DNA of 37,111 bases, from NCBI GenBank assembly GCA_012961955.1, contig DTYH01000090.1:1-37111 (forward strand), given 5' to 3'. This document shows positions 24,065-32,571 of the stretch, piece after piece; position 1 is the stretch's first letter, and every line of letters begins with the position of its first letter. Made by a program: the position numbers and the translations under genes. The notes beneath the pieces are model-generated. The model was not told the origin of the DNA, did not search any database, and worked only from the letters and a program-made list of their open reading frames with translations. This DNA comes from Desulfobacterales bacterium (GTDB taxonomy: Bacteria > Desulfobacterota > Desulfobacteria > Desulfobacterales > DTYH01).

Positions 24065-25058
24065 GATTAAGGCTCCTTAAAAGGACGAACTCGGTATTTC
24101 AGCTAACTATTACACATATCTTAGAAAATCCTACCAGTATTTCACGCATAAATCAACCATACAAAAAAAGGGGCTTCCTTCATCCATGCTCCCAGAAAAC
24201 TAAACCCAGGTTCCCCTTGAAAAAAAGCTTGACAAAGACAACCAGTTGTAAGTATATATAAAAAAGTGGTTTTTTTTGGACACATACGAATACAAACTAT
24301 TCGTAACTATTTACTCTTTACACTTACATGGCGGCCGTGGATATACTTCTTTAGGCAGCACGTCAAAGTACTATGCCGTACCCTCTAGCTTCGAGTGCCC
24401 TGCCGTACGAGCAACTCATGAATTCCCGGTGCCCTCGTCACGTTGTAACATCTGACAAGGTCCTCAGGCTTAAGCTGGTCTCTGAACTCTGGCCCTTGAT
24501 TCCTTATTCCCGGGTATCTTTGTGGCGTCCTGTATAAAACGCGCCATGATTGTGCGCCGATAGCACAGGGCCAAAATGCGACACCTTTGCACAGCCCCCC
24601 TTTCTGCTCGTTCCCATGATCGTTTTGACCCGTCCATGGGCTCGCTCATCAAGGTGCCAGTTCACAACGTATTTCAGTTGTTCCATGATACGCGGGACAT
24701 TCCTGTCCCGCCCTTAATATTCGGCTCGTCCTTTCAAACACCTCATATTTTTCTGTCTGCCGTGGGCCGTTCACCCCGTTAAATTTCCCAGCGAGGAACC
24801 CTACTTAAGCCCGGGTGAACTTCGCCCGGATGGGTATCCTCAGGAAGGTTATAATGGTCTCTCAAATCGGTTATACAAAGGTCTCAATAGTACGAGGATC
24901 CATTAATGGCTTGGAATCAGATTTTTTAGAGGTAGGGCCGCTCTTCCTTTCCCGGGTAGGCTTTGTTTGCTATTATCTCTTTCCAAATGATGACGATACC
25001 CAAGGCGAAACATACGAGCGGTACCCTAAGAGCTGGCGATTTTCGTGCCAGTACGAGG
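24065..25058. other. Long non-coding or decayed region between rarA and the corrinoid gene
   Basis: No intact gene is supported. At 24215-24260 a promoter-like TTGACA (24229) with AT-rich TATATA downstream shares the context TTGAAAAAAAGCTTGACAAA with 30885-30910. On the minus strand, fragments such as YVVNWHLDERAHG and GPEFRDQLKPEDLVRCYNV (in different frames, about 24390-24690) look like remnants of a real protein, but I cannot name it. A small hairpin (CTGGC with GCCAG) lies at 25033-25051. Confidence 0.4.
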
Positions 25059-25147
25059 GGTCTGTTCGCCAAACAAAAGTTCGTTTGAGGAGTCATTAAG
25101 ACGTTTTTAGACAGAGTAAAAACGGATGTTGGCTTGGCGAACAGACC
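25059..25147 (+). promoter_or_regulatory. Structured leader (candidate cis-acting RNA) of the corrinoid methyltransferase genes
   Basis: A perfect 14-bp outer stem joins GGTCTGTTCGCCAA (25059-25072) and TTGGCGAACAGACC (25134-25147). Inside is an 8-bp hairpin, CGTTTTTA (25102-25109) with TAAAAACG (25117-25124) and a 7-base loop. A third pairing, CAAAC with GTTTG (25070-25087), overlaps the outer stem by three bases and so may compete with it. The structure ends 3 bases before the ribosome site region GGGAGGAGG of the gene at 25169. It could be a regulatory leader RNA or a small mobile palindromic element. It lacks the conserved B12-box of cobalamin riboswitches. Confidence 0.5.
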
Positions 25148-25168
25148 ACTGGGAGGAGGCAGGATCAA

Positions 25169-25810
25169 ATGGATTACCTGGAAAAGATAGCATCCCATGT
25201 TGAGGAAGGACGAAACTCCGATATTGGTAATTGTGTGGATTTGGCTCTAAGAGAAGGGATTCCAGTTAGGGATGTCGTAGAGAAGGGTATTGTGGCAGGC
25301 ATAGAGCGCCTGGGAGAGAAGTGGAAGGAGGGTAAAGCGTACCTGCCAGAGGTTCTTATAGCTGTAAGGGCGGCCCAGGCTGGCTTTAAGTTTCTGGAGC
25401 CTGCATTGGCAAAGAGCACTCCGGTGACCAAGGCGAAGGTAATTATCGGCACCATTGAGGGGGATATGCATAGTATTGGGAAGGATCTGGTAAAGCTGGT
25501 ATTACAGGCCAGCGGCTTCACTGTGATAGACCTCGGGGTGGACGTAACACCTGGCAGGTTCCAGCAGGTAGTAGCTGATGAAAAGCCTGACATTTTAGGG
25601 ATTTCCGCTCTTCTCACCACGACGATGACCTCCATCCCTCGGGTTGTAGAGGCCTTGACCGAAAGCGGCCTAAGGCCGGGTGTCAAAGTAATCCTAGGTG
25701 GCGCACCACTGGATGAGGAATTTGCCCGAAAGGCTGGTGCTGATGCATACGCCAAGGATTGTTTCCAAGCAGCAGAGCTAGCCACAACGTTTGTGCAGTT
25801 GAGTAGATAG
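25169..25810 (+). CDS. Corrinoid (B12-binding) methyltransferase protein, MtaC/MtbC/MttC-type
   Basis: The 213-residue product has an N-terminal helical cap domain (residues about 1-85, GIERLGEKWKEGKAYLPEVL) and a C-terminal Rossmann B12-binding domain with the DxHxxG motif EGDMHSIGKD, in which His101 ligates cobalt. GISALLTTTM and ILGGAPL contact the nucleotide tail. Such proteins carry the methyl group as methyl-Co(III) between a substrate methyltransferase and a tetrahydrofolate (or coenzyme M) methyltransferase. GGAGGAGG about 10 bases upstream gives a strong start. The next gene, 100 bases on, is a UroD/MtaA-family methyltransferase, and the other two parts of the system lie opposite at 26978-30014. 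The methylated substrate is unknown. Confidence 0.93.
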   Translation: MDYLEKIASHVEEGRNSDIGNCVDLALREGIPVRDVVEKGIVAGIERLGEKWKEGKAYLPEVLIAVRAAQAGFKFLEPALAKSTPVTKAKVIIGTIEGDMHSIGKDLVKLVLQASGFTVIDLGVDVTPGRFQQVVADEKPDILGISALLTTTMTSIPRVVEALTESGLRPGVKVILGGAPLDEEFARKAGADAYAKDCFQAAELATTFVQLSR

Positions 25811-25911
25811 AAGTAGCCAGGCTCTTGCCTAAACAAAGCCGAAAAGGTTCTTTGCTTGGCAACGGGCCGCAGATGGATAATATCTCATATCTGGTGGGCA
25901 AGGAGGAAATC

Positions 25912-27051
25912 ATGACATCCCGGGAACGATTTCTAAAGATTGCTCGTTTCCAGTTGCCCAATGCCATCTATTTATCACCATATACACAGGGCGTTTGGCA
26001 CAAGACCCTGGAGCGATGGGTCGCAGAGGGCGCTCCCCAGGAGATTCTAACCGATAATGTAGCCCGATATAGATACTTCGAGCTGGACCGAATCGGCATG
26101 GTACGTGTTGAGGCTAGCCTCATCGCTTTAGGGCCGAAAGGTGGCGCACCTTTCATCCCTCCTGTCAGACCCCGGTTTGAATCCAGGGTACTGGAAGAGG
26201 ACGAGAGATCCAGGGTTCGCATCAATGAGGCTGGCGTCACCATACGGGAATTTAAGGATGATCCAGAGAGGATGCCCCTATGGCTGGATTACCCGGTAAA
26301 AAATAGAAAGGACTGGGATGAATACAAAAAGAGGCTGGATCCTCATCACCCGGAGAGATGGCTGGTAAAGGATTGGGACTCTTACGCCGATCGTCTCAGC
26401 AAACGCGATTATCCCTTAGGCCTGGACGTAGGGAGCTTTTTCGGCTTGCTACGCGAAGTTGTAGGAGCAGAGAAGCTCCTGCTCCTGTTTTATGATGACC
26501 CCCAGTTCGTCGAAGATATGATGGTCCATATGGAATACTTCTCAATCCAGATTGTGGAGCGTGTCCTCAAAGATATTCAGGTAGACTTTGCGTTCTTCTG
26601 GGAGGATATGGCCTGGAAGGGAGGCTCTATGATCTCCCCCGAGATGTTCCGAGAGTTCATGATGCCTCATTATAAGAGGGTAACCAGCCTCCTTCGCAGT
26701 CAGGGTGTGGACATCATCATGGTAGATTCCGATGGCGATATCAACGAGCTTATCCCTTTATGGATAGAGAGCGGTGTTAACGGAATGTGGCCCCTGGAGG
26801 TCCAGGCGGGAGTAGATGCCGTCGAGATCAGGAAGAAGTTTGGCAAAGAGTGCATCCTGTGGGGAAATATAGATAAGAAAGCCCTTGCCCAAGGCAAGGA
26901 GGCCATCAAGGAGGAAATCGATAAAAAGGTACCCTTCCTGATCTCCGAAGGGGGTTATTTCCCAGGCCCTGACCACTTTATACCTGAGGACGTCTCCCTT
27001 GAGAATTTCCAGTTCTATCTTGAATATCTTCGCAGCCTTGATCAAAGCTGA
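25912..27051 (+). CDS. Uroporphyrinogen decarboxylase / MtaA-family methyltransferase
   Basis: ATG 25912 (MTSRERFLKIARFQ) is chosen because AGGAGG lies 5 bases upstream, so the track start at 25825 is too early. The 379-residue TIM-barrel protein matches the URO-D superfamily branch found with corrinoid proteins (GLDVGSFFGLLREVVG, WEDMAWKGGSMISPEMF, MVDSDGDINELIPLWIESG, WPLEVQAGVDAVEIRKKFG). It is probably the substrate-side methyltransferase (MT I) that loads the corrinoid protein. The HxC zinc motif of MtaA is absent and only one cysteine is present (GKECILWGN), so metal binding, if any, must differ. True HemE function is unlikely in this context. The 3' end overlaps the opposing methyltransferase gene by 74 bases. 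Confidence 0.85.
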   Translation: MTSRERFLKIARFQLPNAIYLSPYTQGVWHKTLERWVAEGAPQEILTDNVARYRYFELDRIGMVRVEASLIALGPKGGAPFIPPVRPRFESRVLEEDERSRVRINEAGVTIREFKDDPERMPLWLDYPVKNRKDWDEYKKRLDPHHPERWLVKDWDSYADRLSKRDYPLGLDVGSFFGLLREVVGAEKLLLLFYDDPQFVEDMMVHMEYFSIQIVERVLKDIQVDFAFFWEDMAWKGGSMISPEMFREFMMPHYKRVTSLLRSQGVDIIMVDSDGDINELIPLWIESGVNGMWPLEVQAGVDAVEIRKKFGKECILWGNIDKKALAQGKEAIKEEIDKKVPFLISEGGYFPGPDHFIPEDVSLENFQFYLEYLRSLDQS

Positions 27052-27931
27052 AGGAGTCAGGCGCCTGTTTGGCCTTCTCCCTTTTACGATATGCACTGAT
27101 CCAATTCGAAGCGTATTCGTCACGTCCCATACATAGATCTGCCGCCAAAACAGCCATAACTATTTGCTCATTAAGGGGGTTGGTGATGGGACAGGTAATC
27201 CCGCACCGTATAGCCATGGCTATGAAAGTTGCGTTAATGGCCGAACGTTCAGGAATCCCAAACGAGATATTACTGCAGCCCATGGTTATGTTAACACCGA
27301 ATTTCTTCACAAGAGTCTCAACGGAGTCAAGGGCTATCCTGCCTGCCTTGTGGTCTGTTCCTATAGACAGGGCTAAAGGATCAATAATAATGTCTTCAAG
27401 GGGAATACCAATTTTTGTTGCCCGTCCTATAATTTTTCCTGCTATTGAAAGGCGACTTTCCAGATCTGTCGGGATACCTTTATCATCAATGGTCAATCCA
27501 ATTAGGGCTGCCCCATATTCTTTGGCCAGGGGTAAAATGGCTTCCAGCTTGCTTTCCTTCCCGTTAACCGAATTAATCAGGGCCTTCCCTTCATAGATTT
27601 TTAACGCGGCTTCCAATGCCTTGAGATTCGTAGTGTCGATACAAAATGGGGCGTCTGTTACTTCGCGCACTGCTTTCATGATTTCAACGAGCAGGACGGG
27701 CTCGTCCATTTGAGGGACGCCAGCGTTGATGTCAAGGATTGCAGCGCCTGCTTTCACCTGTGCAACAGCATCCTTGCGAACAATATCGAACTTGCCTCGT
27801 CTTAATTCTTCCTGTAACTTCTTGCGACCTGTCGGGTTTATGCGCTCTCCTATTATGACTGTCGGAAGGTTACGATTGATGGAGACTTCCTTACTCCCAG
27901 ATCTAACGGTTGTAGTAAGGCTCTCTACCAC
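26978..27931 (-). CDS. Methyltetrahydrofolate:corrinoid methyltransferase (AcsE/MtrH/MtgA-like)
   Basis: A 317-residue pterin-binding-domain protein: GERINPTGRKKLQEEL (about 29-44), ILDINAGVPQMDE, CIDTTNLKALEAAL, INSVNGKESKLEAILP, IIIDPLALSIGTD and GCSNISFGIPER are those of AcsE/MtrH-type methyltransferases. It probably passes the methyl group of the methyl-corrinoid protein to tetrahydrofolate (MT II), or the reverse. A GTG start at 27931 has GGGAGG about 10 bases upstream. The conserved part ends near ADLCMGRDEY-WISAYRKRE. The last 30 or so residues are antisense to the end of the UroD-family gene and look like a non-conserved extension. It lies 40 bases after the activator gene, so the two form an operon. 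Confidence 0.92.
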   Translation of the reverse strand: MVESLTTTVRSGSKEVSINRNLPTVIIGERINPTGRKKLQEELRRGKFDIVRKDAVAQVKAGAAILDINAGVPQMDEPVLLVEIMKAVREVTDAPFCIDTTNLKALEAALKIYEGKALINSVNGKESKLEAILPLAKEYGAALIGLTIDDKGIPTDLESRLSIAGKIIGRATKIGIPLEDIIIDPLALSIGTDHKAGRIALDSVETLVKKFGVNITMGCSNISFGIPERSAINATFIAMAIRCGITCPITNPLNEQIVMAVLAADLCMGRDEYASNWISAYRKREKAKQAPDSFSFDQGCEDIQDRTGNSQGRRPQV

Positions 27932-27971
27932 TTATCTTTTTCCTCCCTTATTCTCCTTTTTTCATCCGCAG

Positions 27972-30014
27972 CTATTGTTGATAAAGGATTTCTGGCAACA
28001 ATATCGACTCCAGATGTGGGAACGGGTCTTTCATGTGGGGAATATACATGGCGTCAATGAATTCCTCTTGGAAATCGTTGTCTCTAGCTAGGTCGATGTA
28101 TTCGACATTCCGTGCCACCCAGTTGGCTTCAGCCCTCTTGTCCCGGTTTAATAAGGCAGCGAGAGCACCAGCACCGGCTGAGTTCCCCACAGCAACGATC
28201 TTCCTTGGATCGCAGTCAGGGATCATTCCCATGATCAGGACCTTGATTGGATCTGTGTGAATTCCAAAGCCACCGGCAATCTTGATTACATCGACCTGTT
28301 TCACTCCCCATCTTCGCATGAGCAACTTACAACCCGAATAGATAGCGGCTTTGGCCAGTTGGATCTGCCTGATATCCTTTTGCGTTATAGTTATGTCCCT
28401 GCCGATCGCCGTCTCTCTGGCCCAGGCAATAACGAATTCTGGTTGCCTTATGTCAGGGTTGATACGATATCGAGGGGATTTCTGTTCCCGCCGGAAGACC
28501 CCAGTTCTTGTTATGATGCCTGCCCGGTAAAGTTCTGCCAATATTTCCAGGATTCCCGAACCGCAGATGCCGCGCGTCTTTAATTCACCAGGGCTTGCAT
28601 AGTTGGACCAGACATCGCTTGCGACTACTTTATAGATGACCTCATGGGACTCGGGATCAATCCTGATGTGCTCAATTGCCCCGGGTGCAGCACGCATACC
28701 GAATGTGATGTGAGACCCCTCAAAAACCGGGCCAGTAGCGCAAGAAGTGGACATCAATCGTTTCCTGTTCCCGATGACCAATTCTCCATTGGTCCCAATG
28801 TCTATAATCAGATGAACCTGGTCAGACTCGTAGGGGGTTTCTGCGATGAGGACACCCACATTGTCAGCCCCTACAAAACCTGCTTCATTTGGCAGGATAT
28901 GTACATAGGCCGAGGGGCATACGTGGATACCCAGGGTTCTGGCCTTGATGTACAGGCCTTTGCGAACCGCAGGTGGAAACGGGGAAAGACCCACATATTT
29001 GGGATCTATTTGCAAGAGAATATGATGCATTACAGTATTGCCAACGATTGTGACATCCTCTATGTCTTCAGGATGTAGGCACGGGAATTCTGCAGGCGAC
29101 TTTTTCGGTCCGTTTTCTCCAAAATCTCGGTCGATTTCAGACACAACCTTCTGATCCGGCCAGGTAGCCCGCAACATTGATTGGATCAGATCGTTGAGCG
29201 CGTCAATGATATCCGCGCTCATCTTTTGCAGGCCTCCCTTGTGCTGGCCGTGATAATTGATCCGGGAGATTACATCTTCACCATACTTGATCTGGGGATT
29301 CATAATGGCCCGGGTATCCTGTATCTTCATAGAGTTTAGGTGGACAAGAGATGCAGCTACAGTGGTTGTTCCGATATCCACAGCAATACCGTAATTGTCC
29401 AAGGCCCTTCCCGGTCGGACACGGACGATCTCTTTGTCCATCCAGATGCTCACCGTAACCTCCCAATTCTTCTTCCGGAGACGACCGGGAAGCTTCCTTA
29501 TCGCATCGATGTCGCAATCTATATCCTTTAGGCCGTACTGGTTCTTGAGCGAAGCCAAAACACGTTCTAGATCTGCCTCGGGATCCTTGTCCGAAGGTTC
29601 CGACAGTTTCAGATAATACTTTTTTACAGCTGGGTTGCGGTCTACAGGGATGAGACGTGGGTGCTTACTGACGACCTGCCTGAAGACCCTGGATTCTTCC
29701 GGAATAAAGACTGAAAGATCATCTTGAATCGTAGTACAGCAGGCCAGACGAAATCCTTCCTGTTGGCCATCGTTATTGACGAAAAGGGCCTCAGGTTCCT
29801 GTTCGGGAGAAAGGAGTCTTCGCTCAGACACAATACCGTGCCTTGAGTTGTGGCCGTCTGAAACCACTACCTTGCATTTTCCGCAAATCCCTTTTCCACC
29901 ACACAGAGACTCAATACTTTCCCCAATTTCCTGAACTGCCTCTAGAATAGTACTCCCTTTGGAGACCTCTCCTCTGCGGCCCGATGGTTGAAAAACTACA
30001 GTAACCCTGTCCAT
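27972..30014 (-). CDS. Reductive activator of corrinoid proteins (2Fe-2S / ASKHA-domain, RACo-type)
   Basis: The 680-residue protein has an N-terminal plant-type ferredoxin domain with cluster cysteines 38, 44 and 47 (CGGKGICGKC) and Cys92 or 93 (RLACCTT), a linker, and a large C-terminal ASKHA ATPase domain of the DUF4445/RACo type (AVDIGTTTVAASLVHL, NPQIKYGEDVISRI, GNTVMHHIL, DIGTNGELVIGN, GSGILEILAEL, GGFG). RACo-like proteins use ATP to reduce accidentally oxidised Co(II) corrinoid back to active Co(I). With the neighbouring MT II and the opposing corrinoid protein and MT I, this completes a four-component methyl-transfer system. The start ATG 30014 has only a weak upstream site (GGATAA). 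Confidence 0.93.
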   Translation of the reverse strand: MDRVTVVFQPSGRRGEVSKGSTILEAVQEIGESIESLCGGKGICGKCKVVVSDGHNSRHGIVSERRLLSPEQEPEALFVNNDGQQEGFRLACCTTIQDDLSVFIPEESRVFRQVVSKHPRLIPVDRNPAVKKYYLKLSEPSDKDPEADLERVLASLKNQYGLKDIDCDIDAIRKLPGRLRKKNWEVTVSIWMDKEIVRVRPGRALDNYGIAVDIGTTTVAASLVHLNSMKIQDTRAIMNPQIKYGEDVISRINYHGQHKGGLQKMSADIIDALNDLIQSMLRATWPDQKVVSEIDRDFGENGPKKSPAEFPCLHPEDIEDVTIVGNTVMHHILLQIDPKYVGLSPFPPAVRKGLYIKARTLGIHVCPSAYVHILPNEAGFVGADNVGVLIAETPYESDQVHLIIDIGTNGELVIGNRKRLMSTSCATGPVFEGSHITFGMRAAPGAIEHIRIDPESHEVIYKVVASDVWSNYASPGELKTRGICGSGILEILAELYRAGIITRTGVFRREQKSPRYRINPDIRQPEFVIAWARETAIGRDITITQKDIRQIQLAKAAIYSGCKLLMRRWGVKQVDVIKIAGGFGIHTDPIKVLIMGMIPDCDPRKIVAVGNSAGAGALAALLNRDKRAEANWVARNVEYIDLARDNDFQEEFIDAMYIPHMKDPFPHLESILLPEILYQQ

Positions 30015-30828: not shown

Positions 30829-30953
30829 ATGAATATCACGGAATAATTCAAAAAGGCCTCGCCCTCACTGTGCGTAAGTTCCGTTTGAAAAAAAAGGTTG
30901 ACAAGGACAACTTATCATAAGCATGTTGGACTGAAAAGGTCCGTAATGGCCGC

Positions 30954-31468: not shown

Positions 31469-31864
31469 TTGATCGATAAAAAGATTGGATCAAAGATCAA
31501 GCAGATAAGAAAGACCCTGGGATTCTCCCAGATTGAACTAGCCGAGAGAATAGGTATCTCTTTTCAGCAGATTCAAAAATATGAGAAAGGCTCAACAAGG
31601 CTCTCTGTCACGCGTTTGCAACAGATATCTGAGGCCCTTGGAGTCAATATTGCCGTTTTCTTTGAGGAAGCAGAAAAGACTACTAAAGTTTCAGACTTTG
31701 CCGTAAGATATACCACTGCTGGAGATCCACTTGACCCACTTTCACCCCTCAACAAAGAAGAAATTACTCTGTTGAAGCTCTTTCGCAGGACGAAAAATAC
31801 AAAGGTAAGGCAAGGCATAATAATGCAGCTGAAGGGGGTTATTGAACTTGAAAACAAAAAATAA
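31469..31864 (+). CDS. XRE-family HTH transcriptional regulator
   Basis: The 131-residue product has an N-terminal Cro/CI helix-turn-helix (IKQIRKTLGFSQIELAERIGISFQQIQKYEKGSTRLS, residues about 8-45). The C-terminal tail ends in a charged helix (LFRRTKNTKVRQGIIMQLKGVIEL), typical of many proteobacterial stand-alone regulators. It starts at TTG 31469 after AAGGAAA. Targets are unknown. The AT-rich intergenic region shared with the receiver gene (GATAAT at about 31429) is a plausible promoter and operator. A broken radC copy follows after 18 bases. Confidence 0.88.
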   Translation: MIDKKIGSKIKQIRKTLGFSQIELAERIGISFQQIQKYEKGSTRLSVTRLQQISEALGVNIAVFFEEAEKTTKVSDFAVRYTTAGDPLDPLSPLNKEEITLLKLFRRTKNTKVRQGIIMQLKGVIELENKK

Positions 31865-31882
31865 GAAGATAACACGTCTACC

Positions 31883-32571
31883 GTGAGCCAAGGCAATAAA
31901 GTTGGAAGTAGAGTTGAAGCATTATTAAAGATATTCCGGATTTTGACAAACCAAGGGAGAAGCTGGCTGCCAGAGGGCCAGAAGCCTTTTTGGATACTGA
32001 ATTATTTGCAATACTCTTCCGAAGTGGAGTAAAGGGAAAAGATGTGTTTCAGGTAGCCAATGTCGTCTAAGAAAGCTTGACAGAGACAAGGAAACGATAG
32101 ATGTAAGATCCCTTGTTTGGATGAAGGGTTGGTTTTGCCAGAGCATGCCAGATTGTAGCCTCTTTTGAACTTGCAAGGCGTAGAGTTTTAAAGACAAGTA
32201 TCCTTGTTCAAAAGGCAGAAGATGTGACCCCCCTTATTTCACCTATCGCCAACAAAAAACAGGAATATTTACTATGTATATCTTTGGATGGCGCGAACGA
32301 GGTGATCAGGAACAGGGTAGTGACTGTCGGGCTCCTTAATACAAATCAGATCCATCGTCGCGAGGTGTTTGCTGATCCGATTTCCGACCGGGCTGCCTCC
32401 ATAATCCTTGGTCACAATCATCCTTCAGGTGTGGTGAAATCTGGCCCTGATGATTTAGCTACAACAGGGCAGCTAATTGATGCCGGTAAAATTCTGCGAA
32501 TACGTCTGTTGGATCACATTATTATCACAAAGAAAGACCGTCTCTCATTCAGGGAAACAGGATTGATGTGA
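31883..32571 (+). pseudogene. Second radC copy, broken by stops and frameshifts
   Basis: The full RadC layout is readable across frames: IKDIPDFDKPREKLAARGPE and LFRSGVKGKDVFQVANVV up to TAA 32068-32070, KLDRDKETIDVRSLVWMKG in another frame, then GFARACQIVASFELARRRVL running into the track ORF 32224..32571 (LISPIANKKQEY, GLLNTNQIHRREVF, HNHPSGVVKSGPDD, LLDHIIITKKDRLSFRETG). The JAB metal site HNHPSG-x(6)-D is still present. The N-terminal helix-hairpin-helix half has at least three frameshifts (near 31921, 32070 and 32135). The GTG of ORF 32224 is not a real start. It is distinct from the intact radC at 18834, so this is a paralogue from another lineage rather than a recent duplicate. Confidence 0.85.

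Follow-up and report, generated by a model that had tools for sequence, protein, structure and literature searches.

We describe here a set of four genes for corrinoid-dependent methyl transfer in a 37,111-nucleotide stretch of DNA from a Desulfobacterales bacterium, hereafter the window, which is contig C90 (DTYH01000090.1) of a 3.03-Mb, 98%-complete assembly (G000). The genes encode a small corrinoid protein (CP), a protein of the uroporphyrinogen decarboxylase (UroD) superfamily that we propose as the methyl donor:corrinoid protein methyltransferase (MT I), a methyl-corrinoid:tetrahydrofolate methyltransferase (MT II) and an ATP-dependent corrinoid activator of the RACo type. We believe that this cassette is probably a corrinoid-dependent demethylation system that feeds methyl-tetrahydrofolate (methyl-H4folate) into the carbon monoxide dehydrogenase/acetyl-CoA synthase (CODH/ACS) pathway, and that it is best read as two modules meeting tail to tail, MT I with CP and MT II with the activator. 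Sets of UroD protein, CP, MT II and activator are already known; what may be new is the putative link of this particular UroD clade to corrinoid chemistry.

An earlier note on this DNA had placed a complete four-component set, arranged tail to tail, at 25059-30014, and Pfam and motif searches bear this out: all four genes are intact, with open reading frames and the expected Pfam domains above their cut-offs, and they lie in two convergent pairs. On the plus strand, the CP gene (25169-25810; 213 aa, the putative methyl carrier) is followed after 101 nt by the UroD gene (25912-27051; 379 aa), the two forming an operon-like pair; for the UroD gene, the ATG at 25912, which has AAGGAGG upstream, is the likely start, and the TTG at 25825 is not. 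On the minus strand, the activator gene (27972-30014; 680 aa) is followed after 40 nt by the MT II gene (26978-27931; 317 aa, with a GTG start), a gap which, to judge from the sequence, implies a RACo-MT II operon. The UroD stop at 27051 and the MT II stop at 26978 give the two pairs a 3' overlap of 74 bp.

The UroD protein matches the URO-D family (PF01208) with 61.7 bits against a cut-off of 23.9. It falls outside true HemE, membership of which would by the earlier note have counted against a methyl-transfer role, scoring 23.7 bits on the hemE model, for which the cut-off is 302.95. Membership of the MtaA/MtbA/CmuA group was rejected as well, given a score of 28.4 bits on mtaA_cmuA (cut-off 235.4), a single cysteine and the lack of an HxC motif. 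In a motif search the protein also had neither E-X14-E-X20-H nor D-X27-C-X39-C, which are zinc-site patterns of OdmB and VdmB, and it differs from those two enzymes in this respect. The absence of these patterns is compatible with an MT I, since CdmB and the Moorella O-demethylase are reported to be zinc-free (PMC13222342). An AlphaFold model of the protein, built on three sequences, was poor (pLDDT 58, pTM 0.61), and a fold search with this weak model returned UROD and Methanosarcina mazei MtaA first, at TM scores of 0.43-0.50; such matches point to a predicted UroD fold only.

MtvB, OdmB, VdmB, MtoB and CdmB are all MT I enzymes of the UroD superfamily, and each such enzyme has three partners, namely a small CP, an MT II and an activator (PMC13222342, PMC8630106). 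The earlier note had regarded the lack of any known MT I in the cassette as a sign of novelty, and had suggested that the substrate may represent a new specificity. The first point does not in itself speak for novelty, as the UroD fold is the MT I fold of the characterised O-demethylases and of the chloromethane dehalogenase.

The other three components are more readily assigned. The CP combines a B12-binding_2 domain (PF02607) with a B12-binding domain (PF02310) and carries the DxHxxG cobalt-ligand motif, as DMHSIG, at residue 99; its best solved relative is 1y80, a predicted cobalamin-binding protein from Moorella. MT II scores 311.1 bits on PRK07535 (cut-off 259) and 101 bits on Pterin_bind (PF00809), and its relatives in the PDB are AcsE and 4o0q. 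It had previously been described as AcsE/MtrH-like, of which the AcsE-like part is upheld by the PRK07535 match and the MtrH part is not, since the Pfam scan gave PF00809 and CdhD only and no PF02007. MT II was also rejected as the AcsE of the CODH/ACS complex, as it scores 140.8 bits on CODH_ACS_meth, for which the cut-off is 370, and stands apart in the tree from the genome's AcsE. The genome's AcsE-like protein itself, encoded beside CODH/ACS on contig C156, reaches just 215.7 bits on that model, so that position and tree outweigh the score. In an MT II tree from which the badly framed rows L152_8256 and L140 were left out because of the distortion they caused, the window MT II falls among stand-alone MT IIs, one of them from the genome in which locus L151 has a UroD-CP pair beside it, and apart from the AcsE of its own genome and from MetH-fused domains. 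It is closest to stand-alone MT IIs of its own phylum, with up to 55% identity, and shares 48-50% identity with the folate domains of MetH-like proteins of about 880 aa that are followed by a RACo gene.

The activator has an N-terminal 2Fe-2S (Fer2) domain, with cysteines at 38, 44, 47 and 92-93 in its ferredoxin part, followed by the RACo linker, middle and C-terminal Pfam domains, the last of these at 300 bits, and it matches 3zyy with an E-value of 2.7e-102. Its closest sampled match is a MetH-linked RACo. Two further RACo genes in the genome have higher AcsV scores and group apart from that of the window. At two other loci in the window's phylum (L159 and L160), MetH-like proteins of about 876 aa are directly followed by a RACo gene, which suggests that, in this phylum, RACo proteins serve to reactivate the short form of methionine synthase.

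In a quick UroD tree (66 rows, some with long branches), the window protein belongs to a clade of 34 rows (SH-aLRT 92). Within that clade, a second CP-UroD pair is found at locus L105, in a Chloroflexota metagenome-assembled genome (MAG; JdFR-54, G446). The CP gene precedes the UroD gene there, as it does in the window, the products are 46% (CP) and 42% (UroD) identical to their window counterparts, and in the CP tree the CPs of L105 and of the window are sisters with a support of 93/85; that tree retains artefact rows (L152, L154), which were ignored. Given the same gene order and the sister relationship of the CPs, we consider it unlikely that the CP-UroD pairing is accidental, and the fact that a distant lineage pairs members of these two clades again is, at the level of sequence, the best evidence that the UroD protein would use a corrinoid partner, for which the CP encoded 101 nt upstream is the presumed cognate.

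JdFR-54 also carries, at L116, an orthologue that is 79% identical to the window UroD protein and that is likewise represented by L034; the L116 gene is directly followed by that of a BHMT/MetH-type homocysteine methyltransferase. This Chloroflexota match is the only hint that transfer may have taken place. Composition gave no clear sign of horizontal transfer, the four genes having a GC content of 0.47-0.52 and standing out little from their neighbours in GC and in GC at third codon positions. Among 395 genomes surveyed in the window's phylum no UroD match exceeded 36% identity, and a tblastn search of plasmids gave three weak matches, none of them usefully annotated at the UroD gene. Taken together, the JdFR-54 loci L099 (CP-MT II), L105 (CP-UroD) and L116 (UroD-homocysteine methyltransferase) give the impression of a split methionine synthase that is intertwined with UroD methyltransferases, and a further genome of the same phylum, G576, yielded 75 UroD-family candidates at first look in 4.2 Mb, an unusually large expansion.

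From these observations we infer the catalytic roles, the direction of methyl flow and the partnership of the two convergent pairs as follows. The RACo protein would reduce the CP to its Co(I) state with ATP and a low-potential electron donor. The UroD-fold MT I would then bind a substrate that carries a methyl group, in all likelihood as an O-methyl (methoxy) group, and pass this methyl group to Co(I), and the PRK07535-type MT II would move the methyl from methyl-Co(III) to tetrahydrofolate. Finally, methyl-H4folate would enter the CODH/ACS (Wood-Ljungdahl) pathway, whose genes lie elsewhere in the genome; as CODH/ACS subunits are encoded together with AcsE on contig C156, it has a destination. 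Since the genome has one other intact CP, on contig C64, and its only other protein of MT II type is the AcsE-like one, the two modules likely serve each other. The C64 CP gene (locus L044), just past which the contig ends, lies beside a proline racemase and fragments of a proline dehydrogenase and an aldehyde dehydrogenase, which suggests a locus for demethylation of the proline-betaine type. On contig C192 (locus L049), the C-terminus of a UroD protein at the contig edge and a corrinoid-binding fragment are followed by broken 2-oxoacid dehydrogenase and lipoylation genes; the many frame breaks in this locus are perhaps assembly errors.

In bacterial systems the gene for the H4folate methyltransferase is usually found in one cluster with those for the other components (PMC10418091). 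In the window's phylum we found UroD-MT II-CP-RACo sets in one operon (L149, L150, L153), a set in the order CP-UroD-RACo-MT II behind genes resembling those of TRAP transporters (L156), CP-UroD-MT II sets at L155 and L157 and, at L151, a UroD-CP pair that diverges from MT II, and genomes of the same order hold further UroD genes beside RACo, MT II or CP (L014, L015, L016, L022, L023, L024). The operons at L149, L150, L153 and L156 have the same four component types as the window, but as a single operon in each case, and their UroD proteins fall elsewhere in the UroD tree than that of the window. The split into two transcription units, which the earlier note had singled out, is thus not special, L151 being likewise split. 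As for the co-occurrence of the four genes in relatives, the absence of which would by the earlier note have spoken against its reading, the result is mixed: it is found in the phylum with other UroD clades, whereas in the window's own clade only the CP-UroD pair recurs, and only once, at L105.

Among characterised systems, the vanillate O-demethylase MtvABC of Moorella and the Odm/Vdm systems of Acetobacterium dehalogenans share with the window a UroD MT I, a small CP, an MT II that delivers to H4folate and a RACo-like activator (PMC13222342, PMC8630106). Those are characterised aromatic O-demethylases, whereas the window holds two convergent pairs, and the comparison is one of descriptions rather than of sequences. 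MtoABCD, which serves methoxydotrophy in Methermicoccus, similarly combines the UroD-type MtoB, the corrinoid protein MtoC, the activator MtoD and the pterin-dependent MtoA (PMC8630106); however, MtoA belongs to the MtrH family PF02007 (PMC8630106), whereas the window MT II is of the Pterin_bind/PRK07535 type. The chloromethane dehalogenase CdmBCA of A. dehalogenans is likewise built from a UroD MT I, a CP and an MT II, and is zinc-free (PMC13222342). In type 1 mlp gene clusters, too, UroD-superfamily proteins occur together with a corrinoid protein and an activator of the RACE type (PMC10418091). These clusters encode two or three Mlps close to coenzyme M methyltransferases and no H4folate methyltransferase, in contrast to the window, whose single UroD protein is distant from MtaA (28.4 bits, cut-off 235) and which does encode an MT II.

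Several findings weigh against a demethylation system. As many as 31 of the 34 members of the UroD clade are without CP, MT II or RACo within 4 kb, the exceptions to this solitary state being the window, L105 and L116, and the function of the clade need not, therefore, be corrinoid-dependent; outside the clade a partner accompanies 16 of 30 rows, which is not a fair contrast because 9 rows there were chosen for an accompanying MT II, and some loci in the count have short flanks. The 79% orthologue is adjoined by the homocysteine methyltransferase gene only, with no CP, MT II or RACo. The convergent layout means that the two pairs are not co-transcribed, and since the CP-UroD and MT II-RACo pairs have nearest relatives in different lineages, one conserved four-gene system is not established. 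Moreover, no transporter, regulator or substrate-processing gene adjoins the cassette, and the UroD model, at a pLDDT of 58, is too poor for pocket analysis. Could the four genes then be neighbours rather than partners? In that case MT II and RACo, possibly together with the CP, would serve other methyl donors in the genome, for example the C64 CP or the UroD and CP fragments on C192, and the UroD protein would have a role without corrinoid, perhaps like most of its clade. Such an arrangement is consistent with the separate transcription of the convergent pairs, with the many clade members that have no corrinoid partner, several of which lie near glycoside hydrolases, sugar isomerases and GFO/IDH/MocA oxidoreductases, with the second CP and its proline racemase and proline dehydrogenase fragments, and with the UroD C-terminus and CP fragment on C192. 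Nevertheless, given that the window CP and UroD genes lie 101 nt apart on one strand, that the same clades are paired at L105 with sister CPs, and that few other MT I candidates are visible in the genome, we regard this explanation as unlikely, albeit one to be taken seriously.

Two other explanations keep the four proteins together and change their chemistry. The cassette could be a haloalkane dehalogenase of the chloromethane type, as CdmBCA is, instead of an O-demethylase, which would be a special case of demethylation. CdmB is a zinc-free UroD-superfamily MT I, closest to the O-demethylase MtoB (PMC13222342), and the window protein also lacks the zinc-site patterns that were checked; but this lack fits the Moorella O-demethylase, in which zinc was not found, equally well (PMC13222342), and CdmB was compared by description only, so that we find a dehalogenase improbable. 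Alternatively, methyl groups could flow in reverse, with MT II taking the methyl group from methyl-H4folate to load the CP and the UroD-fold protein, which is distantly related to MetE, methylating homocysteine in an unrecognised split methionine synthase. In the 98%-complete genome there is no match to PF02574, the homocysteine domain of MetH and BHMT (S-methyl_trans), nor, even at E<=10, to PF01717, the domain of MetE and core MetE (Meth_synt_2), although the reach of PF01717 to MesB, which in many sulfate-reducing bacteria that have the Wood-Ljungdahl pathway is the only methionine synthase (PMC7857596), is unconfirmed. The likeness of MT II to the folate domains of the RACo-followed MetH-like proteins, the MetH-linked closest match of the window RACo and the homocysteine methyltransferase gene adjoining the 79% orthologue all point the same way. 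On the other hand, the missing methionine synthase could also reflect a gap in the assembly, a MesB that has diverged too far for PF01717 to match, auxotrophy, direct methylthiolation or an unknown enzyme, and MT II groups with stand-alone MT IIs and not with MetH. Since the UroD protein, with its one cysteine, lacks the thiolate ligands of the HxC...C site of its thiol-activating relatives, and since the Chloroflexota orthologue coexists with a real homocysteine methyltransferase and so does not replace it, we believe that a methionine synthase is very unlikely. Demethylation with delivery to CODH/ACS remains the reading that we prefer.

The sequence around the cassette holds further elements. 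Just 5' of the CP gene lies a perfect inverted repeat with 14-bp arms (25059-25072 and 25134-25147), and the resulting stem-loop (25059-25147, plus strand) would form part of the leader of the CP-UroD operon, ending about 20 nt before the CP start, with a predicted folding energy of -51.8 kcal/mol (z = -5.6). The coordinate 25059, which had been given as the beginning of the set, is thus correct as the first base of this repeat and not as a gene start, the CP gene itself beginning at 25169. Within the window the arm sequence matches its own two arms only; no Rfam family reached its gathering score, a sub-threshold microRNA match reflecting the hairpin itself, and the 10-nt core of the stem-loop is absent from loci L034, L105 and L116. 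On both sides of the cassette there are copies of a 36-nt direct repeat (AAAAAAAGSTTGACAARGACAAC...), at 24220-24255 and 30889-30924, which are 78% identical, and a third, weaker copy lies at 32071-32090; the 20-nt core of the repeat had no match in 100 shuffles of the window. A gene for an XRE-type helix-turn-helix protein starts at 31469.

In anaerobes, members of the UroD family often bear no annotation beyond 'uroporphyrinogen decarboxylase'. The CP-UroD operon beside MT II and RACo gives an otherwise solitary UroD clade a testable biochemical role, with four matched proteins. That this mostly solitary clade constitutes a large and as yet undescribed group of corrinoid methyltransferases with a new class of substrates, a group of which the window and L105 would be the rare cases with adjacent partners, is a tentative idea that we hold to be rather doubtful. 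Neighbours of other clade members include alpha-L-fucosidase, alpha-L-arabinofuranosidase, GH4, xylose-isomerase-like and GFO/IDH/MocA proteins; these surroundings, taken without comparison to background frequencies, hint at sugar-related compounds, and because some members lie near glycoside hydrolases and sugar isomerases or oxidoreductases, methylated sugars or polyols are one possible substrate of the clade. If the substrate of the window system is a methoxylated or otherwise methylated compound, the cassette would provide such bacteria with an added route from this material into the acetyl-CoA pathway.

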